Source: Dokdonia sp. (GTDB taxonomy: Bacteria; Bacteroidota; Bacteroidia; Flavobacteriales; Flavobacteriaceae). From it: DNA of 64,000 nt. The first letter of the stretch is position 1. Each line of letters starts with the position of its first letter. The position numbers and the translations under genes were made by a program. The stretch covers positions 1 through 64,000 of the forward strand of contig JAHDIF010000001.1 of assembly GCA_020630915.1 (NCBI GenBank), in the 5' to 3' direction. A model generated the notes under the pieces. It was not told the DNA's origin and made no database searches. It worked only from the letters and a program-made list of their open reading frames with translations. Positions 1 through 10,217 of the stretch are shown here, in pieces.

Positions 1-2
1 AA

Positions 3-27
3 AGACCTTAGTTTACTACTAAAGTCT
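3..27 (-). terminator. Likely original terminator of the tRNA-Met locus
   Basis: AGACCTTAGT (3-12) and ACTAAAGTCT (18-27) pair with one wobble on the minus strand around a 5-nt loop, and A residues at 1-3 give U's at the window edge. It sits 12 bp outside attL, where the tRNA's downstream sequence would lie before integration. Confidence 0.45.
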
Positions 28-37
28 CTTTCTATGA

Positions 38-55
38 AGTGGTCCCACTTGGGCT
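38..55. other. attL (18-bp direct repeat of the tRNA-Met 3' end)
   Basis: AGTGGTCCCACTTGGGCT at 38-55 is identical to 10142-10159. The match ends abruptly on both sides. It reproduces the last 16 nt of the tRNA (3' acceptor strand and part of the T arm) plus 2 nt downstream, the typical core for tyrosine integrases acting on tRNA genes. Confidence 0.85.
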
Positions 56-242
56 ACTTTTCTATTTTAACCAGATTTAGCTCTAGTGTATTCAGGTTAA
101 CACCAAAACTATTACTATATAAACTACTATTCATAGAGGTTTATATAAGTCGTAAATTAAGTTGACACCTAATCTGCCACCCAAACCATTTAGGTTAATT
201 CAGATTAATGATGTCGGATATAAAGTTAGTTAAAATAGATAA

Positions 243-1481
243 ATGAAAACAAAGTTTTTACCTCGAAAAGAAAAAGTAAATTCCAAAGGCTATATGCCTA
301 TTCAATTAATTGTAAACATCGGTGGAAAGCGGATTAGGCAAAATGTGCCAGAGACTAATGTTCTGTCAAATCATTGGAAAAATGACAGAATAAAACCGAA
401 TCTTAAAACTGAGAAATACAATTTCCATATAGAATATAACAAGAAGCTTGACGACCTTGAAAAACGCGTGAAAGACGTTTTTAGATATATTCTGCTTAAT
501 GATTTAAGACCAACGAAGGAGTTATTTTTAGCGGAGTTTAATAATGATACATTGGAAAATAAAATTTCCCCAAATTTTTTTAATTCTTTTCAAGAGTTCG
601 TTGATACATCTAAAACGACAAAAGCTCCAGGGACGATAAGGAAATATATAACTACAAAAAGGTTCATTGCCGACTTTACAGAGTTTTATTTGTACGACTT
701 AAGATTTGAAACAATTACTATTGACTTCTATGAGAAACTTAGAGATTATGCCTTTGAAGAAAGAAACACCTTGAACAATTATTTTGGCAGAACAATATCA
801 GTAATAAAAGCTTTTATGAATTGGTCATTAGATAGGGGTTATCATTCAAATACAGAATTTAAAAGGTTTAAACGAATGCAAGATAATATAGAAGTCATCT
901 ATCTAACAATGGAGGAGCTTATGACTTTATACAATCACAATTTTAGTTCTAAACGACTCAATTATGTGAAAGATTTTTATTGCTTTGGTTGCTTTACTGG
1001 ATTGCGATTCAGTGATATCAAAGCTCTGAGGTCATCAAATGTATATCAAGACCACCTAAAGCTAAATATTCAGAAAACTAAAACCATTGATCAAACCATC
1101 CCTCTCAATAATTATGCTAAAGAAATCCTAGCAAGATATAAGGACACATTATACGAACCTCTTCCCTCTATCTCTGGACAGAAATTTAACTTGTACATTA
1201 AAGAGTGTTGTGAAATAGCCCAAATCAATACTTTAGTTAATACTACTCGTTATATTGGACAGCGTAGAGTTGATAAAGTACAACCCAAATACCAACTAAT
1301 AACAAGTCACACAGCTCGAAAAACTTTTGTTACTAATTCACTTATATTAGGGATGAAAGAAATGGTTGTTAGAAATATAACTGGACATAAAGACGAAGCC
1401 AGTTTTAAGAGATATGTAGAAATTGCAGAAGATTTTAAAAGAAGTGAAATGGATAATACATGGAATAAAATCGTACTATAA
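243..1481 (+). CDS. Tyrosine recombinase / integrase of the element
   Basis: This 412-aa site-specific recombinase would catalyse integration at, and excision from, the tRNA-Met gene. An arm-binding N-terminus (about 1-100) is followed by a SAM-like core-binding domain (about 110-210) and the catalytic domain. The catalytic set is visible: R255 in GLRFSD, H356 and R359 in SHTARK, H382 in TGHK, and nucleophile Y391 in FKRYVEI. A lysine around 277-280 lies where the beta-hairpin lysine is expected. Full length for Bacteroidota conjugative-transposon integrases. It lies 188 bp inside attL and reads inward, the usual placement. The next gene starts 2 bp after its stop. Confidence 0.95.
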   Translation: MKTKFLPRKEKVNSKGYMPIQLIVNIGGKRIRQNVPETNVLSNHWKNDRIKPNLKTEKYNFHIEYNKKLDDLEKRVKDVFRYILLNDLRPTKELFLAEFNNDTLENKISPNFFNSFQEFVDTSKTTKAPGTIRKYITTKRFIADFTEFYLYDLRFETITIDFYEKLRDYAFEERNTLNNYFGRTISVIKAFMNWSLDRGYHSNTEFKRFKRMQDNIEVIYLTMEELMTLYNHNFSSKRLNYVKDFYCFGCFTGLRFSDIKALRSSNVYQDHLKLNIQKTKTIDQTIPLNNYAKEILARYKDTLYEPLPSISGQKFNLYIKECCEIAQINTLVNTTRYIGQRRVDKVQPKYQLITSHTARKTFVTNSLILGMKEMVVRNITGHKDEASFKRYVEIAEDFKRSEMDNTWNKIVL

Positions 1482-1483
1482 TT

Positions 1484-2623
1484 ATGACAAAAACAAAGCA
1501 AAACATTCATTCACTTTACTACGATTATTCAGAAAAATCAATTAAGTACAAGAACTACTTTTCTAACATAAATTCAGCAAAAAGCCCTTTTGAAAAAATC
1601 TGGTTGTTCTTGCATCATATTTCGGAAATTAATCTCGCAATTGATATACAAAAAGATATTACCTTTTTCCTATCATTAAACAATACGAAAGCTACTGAGG
1701 AAGAAAAAAGACATTTAATTTCTGCGATATATAGGGAACACTTAAAAATTCTATCGATTGATTACTCGAGTAATCTTGAAGTAATACTATACGAAAACCT
1801 ATTAGTGCATACAAAAATATTAATGCAACAAGGTTTGCCCATATTAAGAAATGAAAAACTAATCTCAATTGCCCCATTAATATTCTCACATACACATTGG
1901 AAACGAATAATCAAACACGACTTATCTCTGATTGAAAATGCCAGTCATAAAGAAATAATAATATCAGATTATCTTTCTAACATATCAAAACTAATGGGGG
2001 AATTTGATTTAAATAACTCAGCAATTCTTAATAAGTTCAATTCTTTAGCACTGGAGCAGATTAAACAATCATTTAAAGTAAAAAACGACATTTTTAAATT
2101 TTTCGATGTGAAAAATTTAGGAAAAAAGAAAGAATACCTAATTGAGCTATCGTCCGCTAATATTCCTTTAAAATCAAGTAATAAAAGAGCCCTCAATCAA
2201 GAACTGAAGATAGAACTAGCTAATCCGAAAAATATTAGAAAAATAAGAAAAGGGTTGAACTATTTAATTAAAAAACAAAATCCTAATCTTACATCTAAAG
2301 AATCCAAATCAATTGCACGAATAATCTCTTCAGACATTTTTCAGACAGAGAATCCAGAAGTATACAAACCCTTGTATAATCGATCTATTAATTTCAATAA
2401 CAAAGTTTTAATGGAATTTATATTCTTTCTATCTAAAAATCAATACATAAAAAAACAAGGTCACTCTTTCCCAAAGATCATAAGCAATAATTTATCAATC
2501 CATCAAAGAGGGTTTTCATATCAGAATTTATACATACTTGCAAAAAAAATAGAAAGCGATTCTGAGTTAACATTTAATGGACTGACCTCTTCTCTTGCAC
2601 TTGAAAATGAGATGAAATATTAG
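1484..2623 (+). CDS. Unrecognised helical protein coupled to the integrase
   Basis: A 379-aa protein whose ATG lies 2 bp after the integrase stop, so the two are very likely co-translated. I do not recognise the family. The sequence is rich in Lys, Ile, Leu and Asn, reads as mostly helical, and has no signal peptide, membrane segment, Walker motif or obvious HTH. A basic stretch near residues 245-270 (KNIRKIRKGLNYLIKKQNPN) could bind nucleic acid. Its position suggests a role in recombination directionality or element regulation, but that is inference. RteC, common in Bacteroides elements, was considered; I could not match it by eye. Confidence 0.75.
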   Translation: MTKTKQNIHSLYYDYSEKSIKYKNYFSNINSAKSPFEKIWLFLHHISEINLAIDIQKDITFFLSLNNTKATEEEKRHLISAIYREHLKILSIDYSSNLEVILYENLLVHTKILMQQGLPILRNEKLISIAPLIFSHTHWKRIIKHDLSLIENASHKEIIISDYLSNISKLMGEFDLNNSAILNKFNSLALEQIKQSFKVKNDIFKFFDVKNLGKKKEYLIELSSANIPLKSSNKRALNQELKIELANPKNIRKIRKGLNYLIKKQNPNLTSKESKSIARIISSDIFQTENPEVYKPLYNRSINFNNKVLMEFIFFLSKNQYIKKQGHSFPKIISNNLSIHQRGFSYQNLYILAKKIESDSELTFNGLTSSLALENEMKY

Positions 2624-2781
2624 AATTCAAAAATTTATTTTTAAAAAAAGAAACGTTCGTTAAGCCCTTATTTTAATACCTCTCCCCGACTCCCTATACA
2701 ATTAGAATAATTAAAAATATTTTTTTTAGAAACATTAGGATAAGACAATTTAGCTGTGTTTAATTCAAACATCGTTAACAT

Positions 2782-3081
2782 ATGTCAAATCCAATTCTAT
2801 ACGGTTTCACAAAGCAAGACCTAGAAAAAACAGTTGAGCTAGTGATCAATCGTATTCGCAAGACCGAGATTATTCAAAATTCTCCCAACAGTCAAGCAGA
2901 AGATCGCCTAACTCAAAAAGAAGCAGCAGAGCTTTTAGGAATAACAGTTCAGTGTCTTATACAATGGAAAAAGAAGAAACTAATTCCATTTTATCAGATA
3001 GGAAGATCTGTCTTTTATTCAAAAAAGGAACTACTTGCGCAGGCCAGAAAAAACCCATCATTAGTTAAATTCACAAAATAA
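2782..3081 (+). CDS. Excisionase-like helix-turn-helix protein
   Basis: A 99-aa DNA-binding protein. Residues about 43-90 (LTQKEAAELLGIT, then IGRSVFYSKKELL) form a MerR/excisionase-type HTH_17 domain: recognition helix, then a wing read as 'IGRSVFYSKKEL'. Such proteins in Bacteroidota elements act as excision factors or switch on replication and mobilization genes. The start lies after 158 bp of AT-rich sequence that probably holds the promoter, and the helicase gene begins 6 bp after the stop, so this is the first gene of the replication/mobilization operon. Confidence 0.85.
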   Translation: MSNPILYGFTKQDLEKTVELVINRIRKTEIIQNSPNSQAEDRLTQKEAAELLGITVQCLIQWKKKKLIPFYQIGRSVFYSKKELLAQARKNPSLVKFTK

Positions 3082-3087
3082 GTACTT

Positions 3088-4299
3088 ATGTCAAAAGAAG
3101 CGAAATACTTTAGAATTGGCACAGGATTTAAAAAAATCATTGAGAAACCCCTTATATCTGGAGACACGACAAGTGTAATGGTTTCCTGGAATAAAGAAAC
3201 TATTGTTGCCGATCACGGGAAACAATTTTTAAATGACATTCCCAAATTAGATGGATATTGTTGTATTCCAGAACATATTAATTATCAGGAGTTTGTCGGA
3301 AATTTCTACAACACTTACCACGAGCTACCTTACAAGCCTGCTGAAAAAGGAAAAATAAAATACTCATTGCAGTTCGTGAATCACATCTTTGGCAAACAGA
3401 AGGAACTCGGTCTTGATTATCTGAAAATTATATTACTCTATCCAACCCAAATACTACCTATTATATGCTTAGTAAGCAAAGAACGCGGTACTGGAAAATC
3501 TACTTTCATAAAATGGCTTAAAGCTATATATGGTCATAATATGACCTATATAAAAGGTGATAGTTTTTCATCTCAGTTTAATGCTGATTGGGCTTCCAAA
3601 CTAATCATTGCTATAGACGAGGTATTCTTTGATAAGCAAGAAATTACAGAGCGTTTAAAATATCTCTCAACAACTGACAAGGACAAAGTTGAAGCGAAAG
3701 GTAAAGACAGAGAGGAGATAGAATTTTTTGGAAAATTCATTTTATGTTCAAACAACGAAGAAACATTCATTCTTATTGATTCTAATGAAATTAGGTTCTG
3801 GGTGCGTAAAGTAACTCCTTTCATAAATGAAGATACTGAGTTCTTAAGCAAGTTAATTAAGGAGATTCCTGCATTTATGCAATTCTTAATAGATCGGAAA
3901 TTCTCAACTGCTAAGAAAACAAGAATGTGGTTTACTTCTGAACAGATCAAAACAAAAGCACTACAAAAATTAGTGTGGCTGAACAATAATGAAGTTGAAA
4001 GAGAAATGGTACAGCTTTTTTACGAAATATTTGATGCATCTGCAGCTGATGAAATAAAAATTACCCCTCGCGATGTAGTTGCTACCATAATTAAATCCCG
4101 AAGAAAATATTATGAAATCAATGAAGTGCGAAAAATACTCAAATCTAAGTGGGAATTAAAACCATCTGATAACTCCAATTCTTATAGAGGTTATGAGTTT
4201 ACGTCCTATGGAGAATTCATAGAAATAGACAGAAAAGGAAGGTATTACTCTATAAAAAGAATCTTTATAGAACGGATTTTTGATGAAATGATGACATAA
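3088..4299 (+). CDS. SF3-like helicase / DUF5906-type ATPase
   Basis: A 403-aa ATPase related to the phage/plasmid primase-helicase (DUF5906, VirE-like) group. Walker A is GTGKST (about residues 134-139, after LVSKER). Walker B is IIAIDEVFF (about 170-178). A sensor-like stretch ILCSNNEE follows near 214. In mobile elements such proteins unwind or replicate the excised circle or help convert the transferred strand. It lies 6 bp after the HTH gene and its 3' end runs into the TCATCAAA repeat array, with two repeat-like copies inside the last 20 codons. The exact family assignment is by motif only. Confidence 0.82.
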   Translation: MSKEAKYFRIGTGFKKIIEKPLISGDTTSVMVSWNKETIVADHGKQFLNDIPKLDGYCCIPEHINYQEFVGNFYNTYHELPYKPAEKGKIKYSLQFVNHIFGKQKELGLDYLKIILLYPTQILPIICLVSKERGTGKSTFIKWLKAIYGHNMTYIKGDSFSSQFNADWASKLIIAIDEVFFDKQEITERLKYLSTTDKDKVEAKGKDREEIEFFGKFILCSNNEETFILIDSNEIRFWVRKVTPFINEDTEFLSKLIKEIPAFMQFLIDRKFSTAKKTRMWFTSEQIKTKALQKLVWLNNNEVEREMVQLFYEIFDASAADEIKITPRDVVATIIKSRRKYYEINEVRKILKSKWELKPSDNSNSYRGYEFTSYGEFIEIDRKGRYYSIKRIFIERIFDEMMT

Positions 4300-4477
4300 C
4301 TATATAAGCTATTGAAAAACAAAAGATTAACCTATCATCAAAGTTGTCATCAAACTGTCATCAAAATATATAATGATGACCATAAAAAAATGGTTTTGAT
4401 GATTGATGAAAAAATGATGACAATGGAAATAGCAGTAAAATCAAGTGTTAACAAACGTTCGTCATCAAATCATCAAA
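4279..4477. repeat. Iteron-like array of TCATCAAA, candidate origin or operator
   Basis: Seven exact copies of TCATCAAA or its complement TTTGATGA lie at 4279(-), 4335, 4347, 4358, 4395(-), 4462 and 4470. Partial TTGATGA (4403-4409) and ATGATGAC copies (4288-4295, 4373-4380, 4414-4421) add to the array. The three at 4335-4365 are spaced 11-12 bp, about one helical turn. The array fills the gap between the helicase and primase genes. A 63-codon open frame here (TTG start at 4312) looks like a by-product of the repeats. Confidence 0.75.
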
Positions 4478-4499
4478 AATTTATAAAAACGAAGTCTTT

Positions 4500-5381
4500 A
4501 TGAAAGTCCCTAGTCTAAATTGCGAAAATGCCCGAAATATTCTAATTATCAACACTCTTAAAAGCTTAGGGCATTTACCCAAAAGGGAAACGGAAAAAGA
4601 AGCTTGGTTTCTGAGTCCTTTCAGGTCAGAAACTCAAGCCTCATTTAAAGTTTGTAAAAAAATTAATAGATGGTTCGATCACGGACAAGGTACAGGTGGC
4701 AATGTTATTGATTTAGTGATGACATTAAAGAATTACACAGTCTCAGAAGCGTTATACTTTTTTTCTGATATCAATATCTCTTTTTCTTTTCAAAAGCAAA
4801 CAAAAAATATAACAGAACCAAAAACAAATTATCAAATCAAAAGGGTAAAACAATTAGAAAATCGAGCCTTATTATCCTATTTAGATATTAGGGCTATTCA
4901 TCACATTTTAGCAAAAAAATACTGCCAAGAAATATACTATACAATTGATGAAAAAACATATTTCGGCATAGCATTTAAAAACAGGTCTGGAGGATATGAA
5001 TTACGGAATAAATACTTCAAAGGTTGCATAGGAAAAAAAGATTTTACGCATTATCAAAAAGGCAAAAACAATCTAACAATCTTCGAAGGTTTTTTTGATT
5101 TCTTAAGCTTTATAACTCTCAATAAAGAATTAGAAAATCAAACCGACTTTTTAATTCTCAACTCTCTTTCTTTGGTTCAAAAAATAGAAATAGTATTAAA
5201 AGAATATGACAAGATTTACACCTGGCTTGATAATGACAATGCTGGAAAGAGTGCAACTAAAATTATAAAAAACATCCACTCAAAAGTAGAAGATAAAAGT
5301 GTCTTCTTTGATGGATATAAAGACTTGAATGAACATTTGATCTCGATTATTAAACAAGATGTCAAAAGTCAAAAAGAGTGA
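4500..5381 (+). CDS. CHC2-like / TOPRIM primase-type protein
   Basis: A 293-aa protein of the Bacteroidota mobilization-primase type. Residues about 30-85 resemble the DnaG zinc-finger region (SPFRSETQASFKV, then WFDHGQGTGGNVIDL), although the full Cys/His set is not evident. The C-terminal half carries a TOPRIM fold: IFEGFFDFLSF (about 195-205) gives the Glu motif, and TWLDNDNAGKSA (about 240-251) gives the DxD motif. It probably primes complementary-strand synthesis of the element after transfer or during replication. The gene follows the repeat array directly and precedes oriT, consistent with entering the recipient early. Confidence 0.85.
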   Translation: MKVPSLNCENARNILIINTLKSLGHLPKRETEKEAWFLSPFRSETQASFKVCKKINRWFDHGQGTGGNVIDLVMTLKNYTVSEALYFFSDINISFSFQKQTKNITEPKTNYQIKRVKQLENRALLSYLDIRAIHHILAKKYCQEIYYTIDEKTYFGIAFKNRSGGYELRNKYFKGCIGKKDFTHYQKGKNNLTIFEGFFDFLSFITLNKELENQTDFLILNSLSLVQKIEIVLKEYDKIYTWLDNDNAGKSATKIIKNIHSKVEDKSVFFDGYKDLNEHLISIIKQDVKSQKE

Positions 5382-5400
5382 AAACTAGTATTAGCGAAAG

Positions 5401-5426
5401 ACAAAGTGTAACTCACTACACTTTGT
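5401..5426 (-). other. oriT: oriT of MobV type with predicted nick
   Basis: ACAAAGTGTA (5401-5410) and TACACTTTGT (5417-5426) form a perfect 10-bp inverted repeat with a 6-nt loop. Read on the minus strand, AAAGTGTAGTGAGTTACACTTT closely follows the pMV158 oriT as I recall it (nick TAGTGTG/TTA); the differences are mainly paired changes in the stem. The predicted nick is between 5412 and 5411 on the minus strand. It lies 61 bp upstream of the MobV relaxase gene. Confidence 0.8.
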
Positions 5427-5486
5427 ACCAAAGTTCGCTCGTTCAGGGGTTCCCCCTAAAAACCCCAAAAAACAATACGCATAAAT

Positions 5487-6134
5487 ATGAGCTACGCAGT
5501 AATGAGATTACAAAAAATTAAAAATTCTGGTGCATTGGGAAGGCATATAGACAGGAGTTCTGGTGGCTCGATTTCTGTTCCAGAAAACGCTTCAACTAAC
5601 ACTGTGCTAAATAATATTCATTGGGATAAAAAAGGTAATAGCTACACACAAAAAGAGTGGACAGAATTTAGCAAAACAAACCCACTATCGAAGAGAATCA
5701 ACAATGAAATTAAAGAACGCTATAGTCTTGACAAGAAGATCAGAAAAGACGCAGTTAAAGCAGTCGAATACATAATGACATCAGATCATTATAAGATGAA
5801 TGAAATTTTCAAAAAACCAGAAATATATAGTCAATGGGTAAAAGACAATAAGACCTTTTTAGCATCTATATATGGAGAAAAAAATATCATTTCAATGCAT
5901 TTACATTTGGATGAACAAACACCACATCTGCACGCTATTGTAGTGCCTATTACACAAGATGGAAGATTGAGTTGTAAATCATTTGTAGATGGAAAAAGAG
6001 ACCTAGCAGAACAACAAACTCAATATTCAAAACTGATGGAAAAATATGGTATGCATAGAGGTAAAGAAGGAAGTACTGCAAGACACCAAAAAGTAAATTC
6101 TAACTATAAAATAAACACACGTGATAGAGCTTAG
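5487..6134 (+). CDS. MobV-family relaxase (Mob/Pre), short form
   Basis: A 215-aa relaxase that nicks oriT and leads the strand into the recipient. The start MSYAVMRLQKIK closely resembles the MobM/Pre N-terminus. Key residues are H20 in LGRHIDR (MobV relaxases use a conserved histidine here), IRKDAV near 85-91, and the metal-binding HLDEQTPHLH at 140-149. It ends shortly after the catalytic domain, about half the length of MobM, so the usual C-terminal dimerization/membrane region is missing. The stop lies 14 bp inside the coupling-protein gene. The short form looks intact rather than frameshifted. Confidence 0.92.
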   Translation: MSYAVMRLQKIKNSGALGRHIDRSSGGSISVPENASTNTVLNNIHWDKKGNSYTQKEWTEFSKTNPLSKRINNEIKERYSLDKKIRKDAVKAVEYIMTSDHYKMNEIFKKPEIYSQWVKDNKTFLASIYGEKNIISMHLHLDEQTPHLHAIVVPITQDGRLSCKSFVDGKRDLAEQQTQYSKLMEKYGMHRGKEGSTARHQKVNSNYKINTRDRA

Positions 6135-7548
6135 CATTTTATTAATTGTCGTACTCTTTATCAGAAGGTCTAAAAAGAAGATTAAAACTAATTCATTCTA
6201 CGTCTCTGGTAATAGAAATTATACTATCGATAATCTTAACAGAGGATTAATTGCTATAGGTGGAGCTGGGTCAGGAAAAACGTACTCAATGATAAAACCC
6301 CTACTAGGGTATTGTATTAAAAACAAAGGATGCCTAACATTTGATCCAAAAGGAGAATTAAGCCCGCTAATTAATGACCTAGCAGAAAAGAACAATAAGA
6401 AAGTACTAAACTTCTCTTTAGACGACAATTATGACTCCTTAAACCCAATAAGTCTGTGCTATGAGAAAAGTGATATCATTGAATTTAGCAGTTATTTTCT
6501 AAGTGGCATTGTTGGCATTCCAAAAAATGATAATGCAAAATACTTTTTTAACGCGGCGAAAAGCGTCTTAACTGGAGTAATTATTTATTTCAAAAATACA
6601 GATTCCAAATATGCCACAATTCCACATATAATAGCTCTTTTCTTAACGGCCTCTGGAGAAGAGATTCTAAAATTATTATCGTCAGATGCAGAAGCAAGAC
6701 GAGCTTCAATGATTCTCTCTAGTGTCAAAAAAGACCCTAGGCTGATGGGAAATATCATAAGTACATTTACTGCTTTTTTTTCCTCTCTAGATACGCCCAC
6801 AATTTTTAGCAATTTAGTTTCAGAAGAAAAAATAACAATGCCTAATGATCCGCAGAACCCTAGTGTAATCAATTTAATATTCAACCTGCAGAAAAGAGAT
6901 TTATATACCCCTATCTACAGTAGTATAGTTGGTTTGATCCTAAAGAAAATGAACACTCCTAATCAATATGAAAGTGCTGTTATTATTGATGAGTTTACTG
7001 TATTAAGTATTCCAAACTTTGTAAATATCCCAGAGACTGCTCGAAGTAACAAAATAGCAACTTGTATCGCTATCCAAGATCTATCACAGTTAGTGTCAAA
7101 ATATGGACGAGAGGAAGCTTCTTCTATAGTTTCAAATATGGGAAGTCAATTTCTATTTAGAACTACAAATCCTGAAACACTAACGCATTTTGAAAGGATG
7201 TTAGGTACTAGAGAAGTGTCAAATGTCAGCTACACTAGATCAACAGGGATAAGCCTTAAAGCTTCTAAAAACACGGGCGTAAAGGATAAAAATATCCTAA
7301 GAAAAGAAGCAATTATTAACTATCGCCCAGGGCAAGTATTCGGTATTATTTCAGAAGGAAGCTCTAAGCTTATAGAAGGCAGTCGTATTAATGGAAATCA
7401 TTATTTAAAGGATTCTAAAAACAACGGTTCATTCAAGTACAAAATTTCAGATACAGATATAAACGCTGTATATCAACAAGTTTATAATGATATCGATTCG
7501 ATACTCAATACTTCGAATTACATATCGCCATCTAAGTTTAATATTTAA
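6121..7548 (+). CDS. VirD4/TraG-like coupling ATPase
   Basis: A 475-aa type IV coupling protein that would deliver the relaxase-DNA complex to a helper secretion channel. A short N-terminal hydrophobic segment (ELSILLIVVLFI) is followed by Walker A GGAGSGKT (about 47-54), FDPKGE just after it, and Walker B VIIDEF (about 287-292) with the downstream IAIQDLSQL. It starts at GTG 6121, overlapping the relaxase gene by 14 bp, which implies translational coupling. VirD4 proteins usually have two N-terminal TM helices; this one shows only one. No mating-pore genes accompany it. Confidence 0.9.
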   Translation: MIELSILLIVVLFIRRSKKKIKTNSFYVSGNRNYTIDNLNRGLIAIGGAGSGKTYSMIKPLLGYCIKNKGCLTFDPKGELSPLINDLAEKNNKKVLNFSLDDNYDSLNPISLCYEKSDIIEFSSYFLSGIVGIPKNDNAKYFFNAAKSVLTGVIIYFKNTDSKYATIPHIIALFLTASGEEILKLLSSDAEARRASMILSSVKKDPRLMGNIISTFTAFFSSLDTPTIFSNLVSEEKITMPNDPQNPSVINLIFNLQKRDLYTPIYSSIVGLILKKMNTPNQYESAVIIDEFTVLSIPNFVNIPETARSNKIATCIAIQDLSQLVSKYGREEASSIVSNMGSQFLFRTTNPETLTHFERMLGTREVSNVSYTRSTGISLKASKNTGVKDKNILRKEAIINYRPGQVFGIISEGSSKLIEGSRINGNHYLKDSKNNGSFKYKISDTDINAVYQQVYNDIDSILNTSNYISPSKFNI

Positions 7549-7560
7549 AATCAATTAATT

Positions 7561-7983
7561 ATGTTCATTCTATCACTTTTTATGAAAATCGGCAAGTACG
7601 TGGGATATGCACTTTGTCTAGTAATTCCAGTTCTAACAACAGTAAGCGGTCTGTTCTTTTTACTTTTTTCACATAAAGTAAAAAATAAACCAGAATTTGG
7701 CTATATCCTTTTTGAGTCAGATCTCTTAGCTTCATTTACTATTCACCCTACACTATGGTTAGTATATTTTTTATACGTGGTGAAATTAAACAAGTTAAAA
7801 GCACTTCTAATATCTGGAATTGTATTAATTGGGGAAGGGTTCTTCAATACTTTCATAAAAATTCTGGGAGCAGGAAAATTAAGCTTTCTTAGCGCTTACC
7901 ATTTATTTTTTTACATCAATTTAGTTCTTATTACCCTAATCATAATCCATTACAAAAAACAGCAAACATTAGAAGCAGTATAA
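7561..7983 (+). CDS. Small multi-pass membrane protein
   Basis: A 140-aa protein starting 12 bp after the coupling protein, so probably in the same operon. Hydrophobic stretches at about 10-35, 55-75, 80-100 and 110-130 suggest four membrane helices. No family is recognised. Candidate roles are a helper-channel adaptor or entry exclusion, judged only from position. Confidence 0.7.
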   Translation: MFILSLFMKIGKYVGYALCLVIPVLTTVSGLFFLLFSHKVKNKPEFGYILFESDLLASFTIHPTLWLVYFLYVVKLNKLKALLISGIVLIGEGFFNTFIKILGAGKLSFLSAYHLFFYINLVLITLIIIHYKKQQTLEAV

Positions 7984-8070
7984 AACCACCTTAAATAACA
8001 AATATTAAAGCTGGTATAATTCTGTCATAGCATTCACGAATAAAAGACAAACAATAATTCACAATATAAA

Positions 8071-8655
8071 ATGATACACAAAGAATTATACTTTTTCTAT
8101 AACTCCCTTAACAATATAGTTAAGATAGGACGTTCCGACAATACAGAAGCTAGTCTTAAAACCGTTCGATACATTTCTGGCATTAAGGAGATATCTGTTA
8201 TTTGCAAGTTTGAAAATGCTGGTAACCTTGAACCAATTTTTCATAGGTTGTTTAGCGAGTACAGAACAATTGGAGAATGGTTTTATTATGAAGGTGCAGT
8301 TAAATCATATATTGAACACATCAAAAATAAGAAAGCCTTAAAGCCTAGTGATACAGATCTATCGATACTCGCTATTGCAAAAGACACTTCTTATCCCTTT
8401 AGTGCAGATCTAAAAACTTCTTTCTGTAAATTAAAGAAGAACCTGCAAGAAAAGTTTAATACTATAAAAGAAATTTACATTTCAGAACACATCAAAATCA
8501 CAGGAAAAAAGCCGTCAAATTTTAATTTATTTCATCTAATAGAAAAAAAACAAACAACTATTTATCACAATAATAAACTTATTCCAATCTGGTTACACTA
8601 TGATGAAAAGAGATATAAAAGCAATTTAGAATATTACGGACAAGAAATCTTTTAA
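8071..8655 (+). CDS. T5orf172/Mug113 (GIY-YIG-like) domain protein
   Basis: A 194-aa protein. Residues about 3-90 follow the T5orf172/Mug113 pattern of the GIY-YIG superfamily: LYFFYNSLNNIVKIGRSDN at the start, a central Arg in TVRYISG, and LEPIFHRLFSEYRTIGEWFYY, where the E, H and GEWF residues are characteristic. Such domains are seen in phage and element proteins with suspected nuclease activity. The C-terminal 100 residues are not recognised. It stands 87 bp after the previous gene and is likely cargo or a regulatory nuclease of the element. Confidence 0.75.
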   Translation: MIHKELYFFYNSLNNIVKIGRSDNTEASLKTVRYISGIKEISVICKFENAGNLEPIFHRLFSEYRTIGEWFYYEGAVKSYIEHIKNKKALKPSDTDLSILAIAKDTSYPFSADLKTSFCKLKKNLQEKFNTIKEIYISEHIKITGKKPSNFNLFHLIEKKQTTIYHNNKLIPIWLHYDEKRYKSNLEYYGQEIF

Positions 8656-8779
8656 ATTCAACTATAAAAAACTCAATAGTGCAAAAACAAAACTTAGTAC
8701 GCTTTTAGCTACGAGGTTGTATTGTTACTTGTCTCATTTCTCTAAGTGCATTTTTATTACACTATACTTTCAATAAAAT

Positions 8780-8888
8780 CTTACGTAAGTTTTTCTCCAG
8801 GCGCTTTGTGGCCAGCTCAAATCTTTACGTAAGATTTTTTACGTAAAACTAAAAGCAGTTCCGGAACAGCTGAGCTGCTGCAGCAGCT
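8780..8888. repeat. Cluster of palindromes between convergent element genes
   Basis: Within 109 bp are three TTACGTAA palindromes (8781-8788, 8825-8832, 8839-8846), the last extended to TTTTACGTAAAA (8837-8848). GTTCCGGAAC (8858-8867), CAGCTG (8867-8872) and a 16-bp palindrome AGCTGCTGCAGCAGCT (8873-8888) follow. The cluster fills the gap between the plus-strand GIY-YIG gene and the minus-strand PLD gene. It may be a bidirectional terminator, a protein-binding region, or a junction where cargo was added. Confidence 0.65.
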
Positions 8889-8921
8889 TTCCTTTAAGTA
8901 AGAATTCCATCTCCATTTGAC

Positions 8922-9677
8922 CTAATTTATAGGCTCTCGATAAATACTTCTCCCCCATTGTTGAATATCAATTTGAGGAGAACTTGACTCATAAAGGCTT
9001 TCAAACTCAATCAAAAGATCATTTAAGGCGCTTTTATCGGTTGTTCTAATTCTTGTCTCATGATTACCCTTTGAACCATTATACGTGAAATTAAGAGAGC
9101 CTAGATAAGCTATTTCGTCATCTATGATGAATATCTTACTATGAATAAACTTTCCTTTACCATATCCTTTCTCTGGAGATAAAAAAACCTTGAACGGAAA
9201 ATACTGAGAATACCAATAATTATATATTCTAGTATTACGATAATAACTCCTCTGAACTAAGTATAAAATAAAGACCACAAACAAGATTGGAATGGCAATA
9301 AGGTATTTTTCTTGTGGAGCTTGATATGTAAGATATCCCATAATTGAAGAAGCTATAATCAGAAATAAAAGTAAAAATCGATATCGCTTTTTAAACTTTG
9401 TTCTTTTAATCACAGCTTCCTCTATAATCTCTCTATTTTGATTTATAAGATTGTAAACTAAACCTTTGTGATTTCTATTGATTTTTATCTCATCCATAGT
9501 AATCAGTTGCACATCTATACCTTCTTTTTTCTTTTCAATAAGCGATTTAGTAAACGAAGGAGATAAATATGGAGAGACTATCTTAATTGTCTTTCTGGCA
9601 TTTTCTATATCATTAAGTAGTTTTTTTCCAGCCCCTTGACCGATATATATGTCGCATTTGACGTTGTTTGAGAACAT
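8922..9677 (-). CDS. Membrane-embedded phospholipase-D-like protein
   Basis: A 251-aa protein of the PLD superfamily. The N-terminal part (about 1-75) has the PLD-like strand pattern TIKIVSPYLSPSFTKSLI and LITMDE but no complete HKD. Two membrane helices follow (about 97-116 and 122-143). The catalytic motif HSKIFIIDDEIAYLGSLNF (about 190-208) supplies His, Lys and Asp. With a single HKD the enzyme would have to dimerize, as Nuc-type PLD nucleases do. It lies at the right end of the IME, on the opposite strand to the mobilization genes, as cargo. A defence or DNA-entry role is possible but unproven. Confidence 0.8.
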   Translation of the reverse strand: MFSNNVKCDIYIGQGAGKKLLNDIENARKTIKIVSPYLSPSFTKSLIEKKKEGIDVQLITMDEIKINRNHKGLVYNLINQNREIIEEAVIKRTKFKKRYRFLLLFLIIASSIMGYLTYQAPQEKYLIAIPILFVVFILYLVQRSYYRNTRIYNYWYSQYFPFKVFLSPEKGYGKGKFIHSKIFIIDDEIAYLGSLNFTYNGSKGNHETRIRTTDKSALNDLLIEFESLYESSSPQIDIQQWGRSIYREPIN

Positions 9678-9731
9678 AGGTAACCTTTAATAAAAAATAT
9701 GGTGTAATGATAAAAGTAATATTTAATAATT

Positions 9732-10040
9732 TTACTCCTTATAATTATAATAAAACATTGTCCTAAACTGGTCATTTGGGTTATCTAACTTTGGAAATAA
9801 ATCATTTTCGTTCATAAAACAAATTAATTCAAAAAAGGATTCTTTTAATCTATCTCTATTTGACCAATTACAATCATCAATCCTGTTATCTAGTAAAGTT
9901 ACATTCTCTAATGTAGAAATATATCCTTTTGTATATCCAAAATCAAAATTAAAAACTGTTTCAAAATCAACCAATAATTTTGTGACATGTTCATTTAATT
10001 CATCTGAGAAACTATCATTTACTTTTTTACCGTTTATCAT
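9732..10040 (-). CDS. Unknown 102-aa acidic protein
   Basis: A short soluble protein rich in Asp, Asn and Phe, with no recognised domain, membrane segment or signal. It lies 54 bp upstream of the PLD-like gene on the same strand and could be its operon partner, for example an immunity or regulatory protein. The ATG at 10040 follows an AT-rich stretch. The only support is an open frame of ordinary composition and this context. Confidence 0.55.
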   Translation of the reverse strand: MINGKKVNDSFSDELNEHVTKLLVDFETVFNFDFGYTKGYISTLENVTLLDNRIDDCNWSNRDRLKESFFELICFMNENDLFPKLDNPNDQFRTMFYYNYKE

Positions 10041-10105
10041 AAATATTATATTCTAATTAAACATTATTCTATTTTTTGCCACCCATTTAACCACCCTAAA
10101 AACAA

Positions 10106-10130
10106 AAACCCCTTGCTTTGCAAGGGGTTT
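10106..10130 (-). terminator. Terminator supplied by the element behind tRNA-Met
   Basis: CCCCTTGC (10109-10116), loop TTT, GCAAGGGG (10120-10127) form a perfect 8-bp stem with A/T runs on both sides. On the minus strand the stem is followed by a U-rich run (10101-10108). It lies 14 bp past attR, inside the element, and so replaces the tRNA's own terminator, which integration moved 10 kb away. Confidence 0.8.
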
Positions 10131-10141
10131 CATCATATATT

Positions 10142-10159
10142 AGTGGTCCCACTTGGGCT
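10142..10159. other. attR (direct repeat inside tRNA-Met)
   Basis: The second copy of the 18-bp repeat at 38-55. It covers the 3' acceptor strand and part of the T arm of the tRNA-Met gene, so the gene stays intact after integration. Confidence 0.85.
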
Positions 10160-10217
10160 CGAACCAAGGACCCTCTGATTATGAGTCAGATGCTCTAACC
10201 AACTGAGCTATGGGACC
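10144..10217 (-). tRNA. tRNA-Met (CAT), integration target
   Basis: A 74-nt cloverleaf on the minus strand. Acceptor GGTCCCA pairs with TGGGACC, the D arm is GCTC...GAGC, the anticodon stem TCTGA/TCAGA encloses CTCATAA (anticodon CAT), the T arm is CTTGG/CCAAG with TTCGAGC, and the discriminator is A. CCA is not encoded. It could be elongator tRNA-Met or the CAT-anticodon tRNA-Ile that is lysidine-modified; sequence inspection does not settle this. Confidence 0.95.

Follow-up and report, generated by a model that had tools for sequence, protein, structure and literature searches.

A predicted MobV-type origin of transfer, inverted relative to its relaxase gene, in an integrated mobilizable element of Dokdonia sp.

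The window, that is, the whole stretch of 64,000 nucleotides of Dokdonia sp. DNA that was analysed, contains an element of about 10.1 kb (38..10159) lying in a tRNA-Met gene. The coordinates of its features are given in Table 1. The element features an integrase gene, direct att repeats and a relaxase gene with a predicted oriT, with no complete pore, and by this organisation it is assigned to the integrative and mobilizable elements (IMEs). The MobV relaxase scores 163.9 bits against NF041497 (curated equivalog cut-off 100), matches the structure 4lvi in the PDB with an E-value of 3.3e-17 and possesses the three-histidine metal motif HLHLDEQTPHLH; its His20 and Arg23 align with the His/Arg pair of Bacillota members. 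Its length is close to that of the solved MobM domain (4lvi, 198 aa), and none of the other intact relaxases that were translated is shorter than those of the window and of the two related loci L002 and L003 (215–216 aa). The genome has a single PF02534 match, the coupling protein. The DUF5906 protein is, from its setting, presumably helicase-like.

Table 1. Features of the element and of its predicted oriT, in window coordinates.
Feature	Position	Strand	Remarks
att, integrase end	38..55	no strand	AGTGGTCCCACTTGGGCT, 18 bp
Tyrosine integrase	243..1481	+	PF00589, PF13102
379-aa ORF	1484..2623	+	No family; ORF in equivalent place in L002 and L003
HTH_17 protein, excisionase-like	2782..3081	+	PF12728; TIGR01764 at 25.7 bits, under the cut-off of 28.8
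DUF5906 protein	3088..4299	+	PF19263
DnaG-like primase	4500..5381	+	Zinc ribbon and Toprim; profile matches
IR2 of oriT	5401..5426	minus	10-bp arms around predicted nick, 6-nt loop
Nick core	5411..5418	minus	TAGTGAG/T; predicted cleavage G5412/T5411, inferred from sequence
IR1 of oriT	5420..5434	minus	ACTTTG-gta-CAAAGT; pairs 5420-5425 / 5429-5434
GAACGAGCGAAC stretch 5' of IR1	5433..5444	minus	By-eye reading
mobV relaxase	5487..6134	+	215 aa, catalytic domain only; NF041497, PF01076
VirD4-like coupling protein	6121..7548	+	475 aa; PF02534, PF10412, PF12696; ORF overlaps the end of mobV
Small hydrophobic protein	7561..7983	+	140 aa; conserved in L002, no family match
att, tRNA end	10142..10159	no strand	Exact 18-bp repeat AGTGGTCCCACTTGGGCT; covers the 3' end of tRNA-Met 10143-10217 (minus)

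A cargo gene at 8071-8655 encodes a MUG113/T5orf172 domain, which we take to be GIY-YIG-like, and a similar ORF adjoins the Aquimarina element (L003, 13022-13612). A PLD-family protein with hydrophobic stretches is encoded at 8922-9677; its matches to the defence-associated PLD proteins DpdK and DrmC are weak and lie under the cut-offs.

The att 18-mer AGTGGTCCCACTTGGGCT is also present ahead of the integrase gene in L002. Contig C2 of the host genome (L077) starts with the same 18-mer, and its positions 1-55 are the reverse complement of window positions 1-55. Of 18 genomes of the genus, 13 contain the tRNA end, taken as a 24-mer, and DNA homologous to C2 (67–71%) starts about 0.5 kb past the tRNA in all nine genus relatives compared; hence, the element is located between the tRNA and C2. 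A contig stopping precisely where the att core starts would be expected if reads of the empty site coexist with those of the element, and it may hint at spontaneous excision. The sequence TGCCACCCA occurs near both ends of the element, at about 174-182 and 10077-10085, and these copies are possibly arm sites of the integrase.

No pore protein was found in 10 of the 11 non-overlapping element ORFs of at least 80 aa (the 102-aa ORF at 9732-10040 was left out). The pore ATPase TraG of the Bacteroidota type (TIGR03783) had no match in the host genome, vs. matches in 22 of the 100 genomes of the family that were searched, so the element should need the pore of a helper, to be used with its own coupling protein.

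An inverted repeat is situated between the primase and mobV genes. Its arms (5401-5410 and 5417-5426) are complementary at 10 of 10 positions around a loop of 6 nt, it reads ACAAAGTGTAGTGAGTTACACTTTGT on the minus strand and it is separated from the mobV start codon (5487) by 60 nt. Judged by its surroundings, the repeat represents the nick-spanning half (IR2) of a putative pMV158-type MobV oriT. A second repeat, IR1, overlaps IR2, and the middle arm is common to both; on the minus strand, exactly 8 nt separate the 3' end of IR1 from the predicted G/T nick. The block as a whole has the minus-strand sequence GAACGAGCGAACTTTGGTACAAAGTGTAGTGAG/TTACACTTTGTC, with a slash added at the predicted nick. 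The GAACGAGCGAAC stretch (GAACGA or GCGAAC) is, by eye, partly common to the proteobacterial MobV oriTs L012, L015, L089 and L090. The sequence-only reading had described the locus as a MobV-type oriT in a Bacteroidota IME, an assignment that the present data support; the perfect 10-bp repeat that it had reported is exact and correctly placed, and the dinucleotide predicted for nicking, G5412/T5411, agrees with the position suggested by the core and the spacing of IR1. Of the two repeats, however, it had recognised IR2 alone; IR1 and its spacing of 8 nt went unnoticed, as did the GAACGA/GCGAAC stretch and the att sites that bound the element.

The comparison with pMV158 is based on published descriptions of its oriT and not on its sequence record. 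In one description, IR1 lies 8 nt upstream of the nick G3595/T3596, the arms of IR2 encompass the nick, a direct repeat is shared by the left arm of IR1 and the right arm of IR2, and IR3 is an extension of IR1 that pairs with nick-adjacent bases (PMC5863519). The nick cores are given as TAGTGTG/TTA for MobM and 5'-TAGTGCG/TTA-3' for MobSag, the latter on the coding strand, in PMC5090054. The spacing of IR1, the position of IR2 around the G/T nick, the direct repeat in IR1-left and IR2-right, the TAGTGNG/T core and the Mob_Pre HUH relaxase are common to the window and to pMV158/MobM (MOBV1). A counterpart of IR3 was not seen by eye in the window, and there is no CTCAC directly 5' of IR1. Further differences are the core (TAGTGAG), the 215-aa relaxase, the integrated state with an own coupling protein and the orientation of the oriT, which is inverted relative to the relaxase gene; the strand nicked in pMV158 is the coding strand of the relaxase, while here it would be the opposite one.

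An outer repeat, AGCGAA/TTCGCT (5393-5398 / 5434-5439) was regarded as a chance occurrence because it is not conserved in L002 or L003. The interval between the oriT and mobV (5446-5466) contains GGGG-tt-CCCCC followed by AACCCC, similar in L002, and is possibly a mobV leader or an oriT flank. Several distant mobV genes, too, are preceded by GC-rich GGGG/CCCC repeats.

When the 105-bp intergenic stretch was dinucleotide-shuffled 5000 times, a hairpin like IR2 arose twice. Perfect hairpins of 10 or more base pairs amounted to 12 rows at 8 places in the 64 kb, compared with 0–3 rows per shuffle in 8 shuffles. The hairpin alone is weaker evidence than the combination of core, IR1 and IR2, which was scored by an oriT detector (core TA[AG]T[AG]NG[CT] combined with IR1 and IR2). 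The predicted oriT has a score of 16. Dinucleotide shuffling of the 450-bp region ahead of mobV gave a score of at least 16 once in 5000 and of at least 10 in 11 of 5000, and mononucleotide-shuffled upstream regions of the loci gave a score of at least 10 in 3 of 3000 strand-regions. The folding of single-stranded DNA was calculated for a 30-nt minus-strand stretch with IR2 (−8.0 kcal/mol, z −3.99) and for a 28-nt stretch with IR1 (−3.4 kcal/mol, z −2.56).

The strand of the nick deserves separate consideration. Most oriTs seen in Bacillota and Pseudomonadota loci are co-directional, and the arms of the palindromic IR2 do not by themselves determine the strand; a nick on the plus strand, which codes for mobV, as in pMV158, with mobV entering the recipient first, is an alternative within the MobV type. 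It is very improbable, since the plus-strand loop reads CTCACTA rather than TAGTGNG, IR1 at its distance of 8 nt and the GAACGA stretch 5' of the core exist on the minus strand only, and, apart from the minus-strand site, nothing in the 64 kb scores 11 or more in either direction.

The closest relaxases among the 24 loci of the scan belong to L002, a Dokdonia contig (91%), and to L003 from Aquimarina algicola (62%). Both loci have the gene order integrase, unknown ORF, HTH, DUF5906, primase, oriT, mobV and coupling protein, with one additional ORF ahead of the oriT in L003, and in both the oriT block is opposite to the mobV strand, as in the window. Compared with the window, L003 carries a T to C replacement in the shared arm, accompanied by A to G in IR1-left and A to G in IR2-right; owing to this three-way change, both alternative hairpins remain perfect. 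In L002, IR1 is down to 5 pairs. The stem of the window (GTGTA/TACAC) corresponds to GTATA/TATAC in L028 and GCGTA/TACGC in L003; the paired stem changes proposed earlier are therefore present with respect to these two sequences, while the same proposal for pMV158 rests on the published descriptions of its oriT.

Similarity beyond the hairpin, which the sequence-only reading had named as its own test, was searched for using a 66-bp blastn query against 72,556 plasmid records with an E limit of 10. Seven records matched, the best with an E-value of 0.01; the E-values of 0.01 to 5 are weak singly, and 33–53% of the query was covered. Six of the seven were inspected: three (Priestia, Virgibacillus and S. 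mutans) have an annotated mobV 36–39 bp downstream in the same direction, and the Geobacillus record contains an unannotated mobV downstream of the oriT block, also in the same direction (tblastn); these four are Bacillota plasmids. In the Acinetobacter and S. suis records, mobV was neither annotated nor found by tblastn.

The same structures could belong to a dead IME, in which the hairpin would be a relaxase-bound operator or a decayed oriT. The oriT region of pMV158 contains or adjoins the mobM promoters, which are repressed by MobM binding (PMC5863519), and the Bacteroidota-type pore ATPase was not found in the host genome. Against this, the ORFs of the integrase, primase, relaxase and coupling protein are all open, the att repeats are exact, the assembly stops at the att core, as would be expected with empty sites among the sequenced DNA, and L003 retains the structure through a compensating change, all of which makes an inactive element a poor explanation with little probability. 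Least probable of all is a terminator of primase-gene transcription or an ordinary regulatory hairpin: the repeat begins about 20 bp past the primase stop codon in a window over-rich in perfect hairpins, yet it is followed by no T-run on either strand, and its core and spacing match those of mobV-adjacent oriTs in other phyla. A scan of 5250-5600 found no terminator-like and no sigma-70-like site.

The reading of positions 5397-5444 as the oriT of an IME, with the minus strand nicked and transferred, the orientation inverted with respect to mobV and the transfer dependent on a helper, is considered highly probable as a whole. In this scheme, the integrase and the HTH protein would excise the element, and the MobV relaxase would recognise, on the minus strand of the supercoiled circle, IR1 and the 8-nt GTAGTGAG. 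The relaxase would nick between G5412 and T5411, probably via His20, in line with the catalysis by a histidine described in PMC5863519. It would then remain on the 5' end, and the coupling protein of the element would pass the complex on to a pore supplied by a conjugative helper. The minus strand would enter with its 5' end first, followed by the primase, DUF5906 and HTH genes, the integrase gene, the att junction and the cargo, and the genes for the coupling protein and mobV would enter last. IR2 may serve in repression, as proposed for pMV158, or in rejoining.

IMESag-rpsI of Streptococcus agalactiae is likewise an integrated mobilizable element with a MobV relaxase and a pMV158-type oriT; MobV oriTs in IMEs are thus already known. 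Unlike in the window, it is nicked on the strand that codes for mob, and a coupling protein was not observed (PMC5090054). The Bacteroidetes IMEs with MobV or MobP (Tn5520 and Tn4555) resemble the window element in phylum, in being mobilizable and in their tyrosine integrase. A paper of Smith and Parker from 1998 on the Tn4555 oriT reportedly relates, by its title, an element of Bacteroides to a family of Gram-positive plasmids. A review of 2017 counted few Bacteroidetes IMEs found by then, none encoding a coupling protein (PMC5704250), in contrast to the IME in the window. Plasmid oriTs of Cardinium (L062 and L086), Tunicatimonas (L085) and Hymenobacter (L088) have the same architecture and are also reversed beside mobV, although these cases are plasmids with longer relaxases. 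Among the titles and abstract openings of the literature matches listed, which mostly do not include subscription papers, none dealt with how the oriT is oriented in MobV elements of Bacteroidota. Within the scope of these listings, two points are new: the reversal of the orientation across the lineage, and the presence of a coupling protein in a MobV IME of Bacteroidota.

No other feature of the locus is as unusual as the reversed orientation of the oriT. A census of orientation covered 76 loci, in each of which the 450 bp ahead of the MobV start were scanned with both strands treated alike. Window copies L001 and L026 were left out, and the 76 include several overlapping stretches that surround a single gene. 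A strict oriT site was found in 21 loci; the 55 without a site include many remote or partial relatives. In all 21, IR1 comprises 5 bp or more and ends 7–10 nt ahead of the nick, IR1 being one of two routes to qualification. Eight sites are reversed, namely those of the window, L002, L003, L062, L086, L085 (where the other strand holds a weaker core, 12 vs. 10), L088 and L109 from E. faecalis. The 13 co-directional sites belong to Bacillota (L056, L058, L059 and L060), Pseudomonadota (L011, L012, L014, L089, L090 and L091), a Kapaibacterium-labelled MAG with a relaxase that groups with betaproteobacterial ones (L015) and Flavobacteriaceae MAG contigs of one genome (G022) whose relaxases group with Bacillota ones (L028 and L033). 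The grouping of L028, L033 and L015 may reflect either misbinning or recent transfer. Within the Bacteroidota relaxase clade, all six strict sites are reversed, as is L088, which has a Bacteroidota host and a relaxase outside this clade; 13 of the 14 remaining loci are co-directional. Three "Bacteroidota" rows are co-directional by host label and none by relaxase clade.

A looser scan added the reversed sites L035 (weak, score 5), L082, L083, L084 (8 vs. 7 on the other strand) and L004 (a Methylobacter MAG), and the co-directional site L094. The motif TAA[TC][AGT][ATG]GCTA was found in the 600 bp upstream in 17 of 63 loci, always opposite to the mobV strand. By analogy, 12 Bacteroidales-type rows (L005, L007, L008, L009, L036, L037, L039, L040, L041, L042, L046 and L087) were labelled as reversed in the tree through a TAATRAG/CTA-like core; among these, the best site is on the mobV strand in L040 and L042 (10 and 11, vs. 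9), close rival sites exist on that strand in L046 and L007 (10 vs. 11), and L037 scores 3 on either strand.

The maximum-likelihood tree was built from 38 relaxase domains, without L058 (broken frame) and the loci lacking a recognised oriT. Twenty-two reversed rows, including the window and L009 from a MAG labelled Clostridium, form one supported clade (95/88). The orientation label requires 3 changes on the tree, compared with a mean of 11 after shuffling. In an earlier tree without L109, the supported branches were compatible with one origin of all reversed loci. A single clade for all 25 reversed rows, and with it one origin, was rejected by the AU test (p = 9.7e-5); L109, L004 and L088 lie outside the clade. 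The tree thus points to oriT reversal as a mark of the Bacteroidota MobV lineage that occurs elsewhere too, and a single reversed clade is proposed for the 22 rows only.

The polarity of transfer had been described beforehand as the expected one. This agrees with the usual assumption for conjugative plasmids; a large leading-region survey, which includes V among its MOB classes, took relaxosome genes as typically lagging and distinguished leading from lagging regions on this basis (PMC11541004). The predicted polarity is, however, opposite to that of pMV158, where the transferred strand is the coding strand (PMC5863519, Figure 2 legend), of IMESag-rpsI (PMC5090054), and of the 13 co-directional sites. 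Within MobV, the reversed Bacteroidota loci conform to the lagging-relaxosome rule and those of the pMV158 type do not, so leading and lagging regions would be swapped for one of the groups. The order in which genes enter the recipient bears on their expression before second-strand synthesis. It is conceivable, though doubtful, that the MobV oriT of Bacteroidota was inverted early and kept, with the relaxase and coupling genes always last and the polarity a selected, lineage-specific trait. If so, the genes from the integrase to the coupling protein could be transcribed from incoming single strands, since the minus strand, presumed to be transferred, is the template strand of all of them; the orientation in pMV158 forbids this for mobM. 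Such early expression from single strands is speculation. For direct nicking tests, the locus provides a substrate of 44 nt and a relaxase of 215 aa.

Related sequences were also sought in viral contigs and in further records. The exact IR2 pattern had no match in the viral contigs scanned, and the relaxase query against viral contigs returned one distant locus. When six further oriT-matching records were searched by tblastn, mobV was found within the stretch only in that of E. faecalis (L109), where it points away from the oriT. By coordinates, mobV is close to the oriT and on its strand in a Bacillus badius record, and about 4.4 kb from the oriT, on the same strand, in two Clostridia records (Pusillibacter and Subdoligranulum). 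Within 4 kb stretches, no mobV was detected by tblastn in L110, L111 and L112. These three contain MobV oriT cores at about 2001-2031, and aadE-type cassettes adjoin those of L111 and L112.
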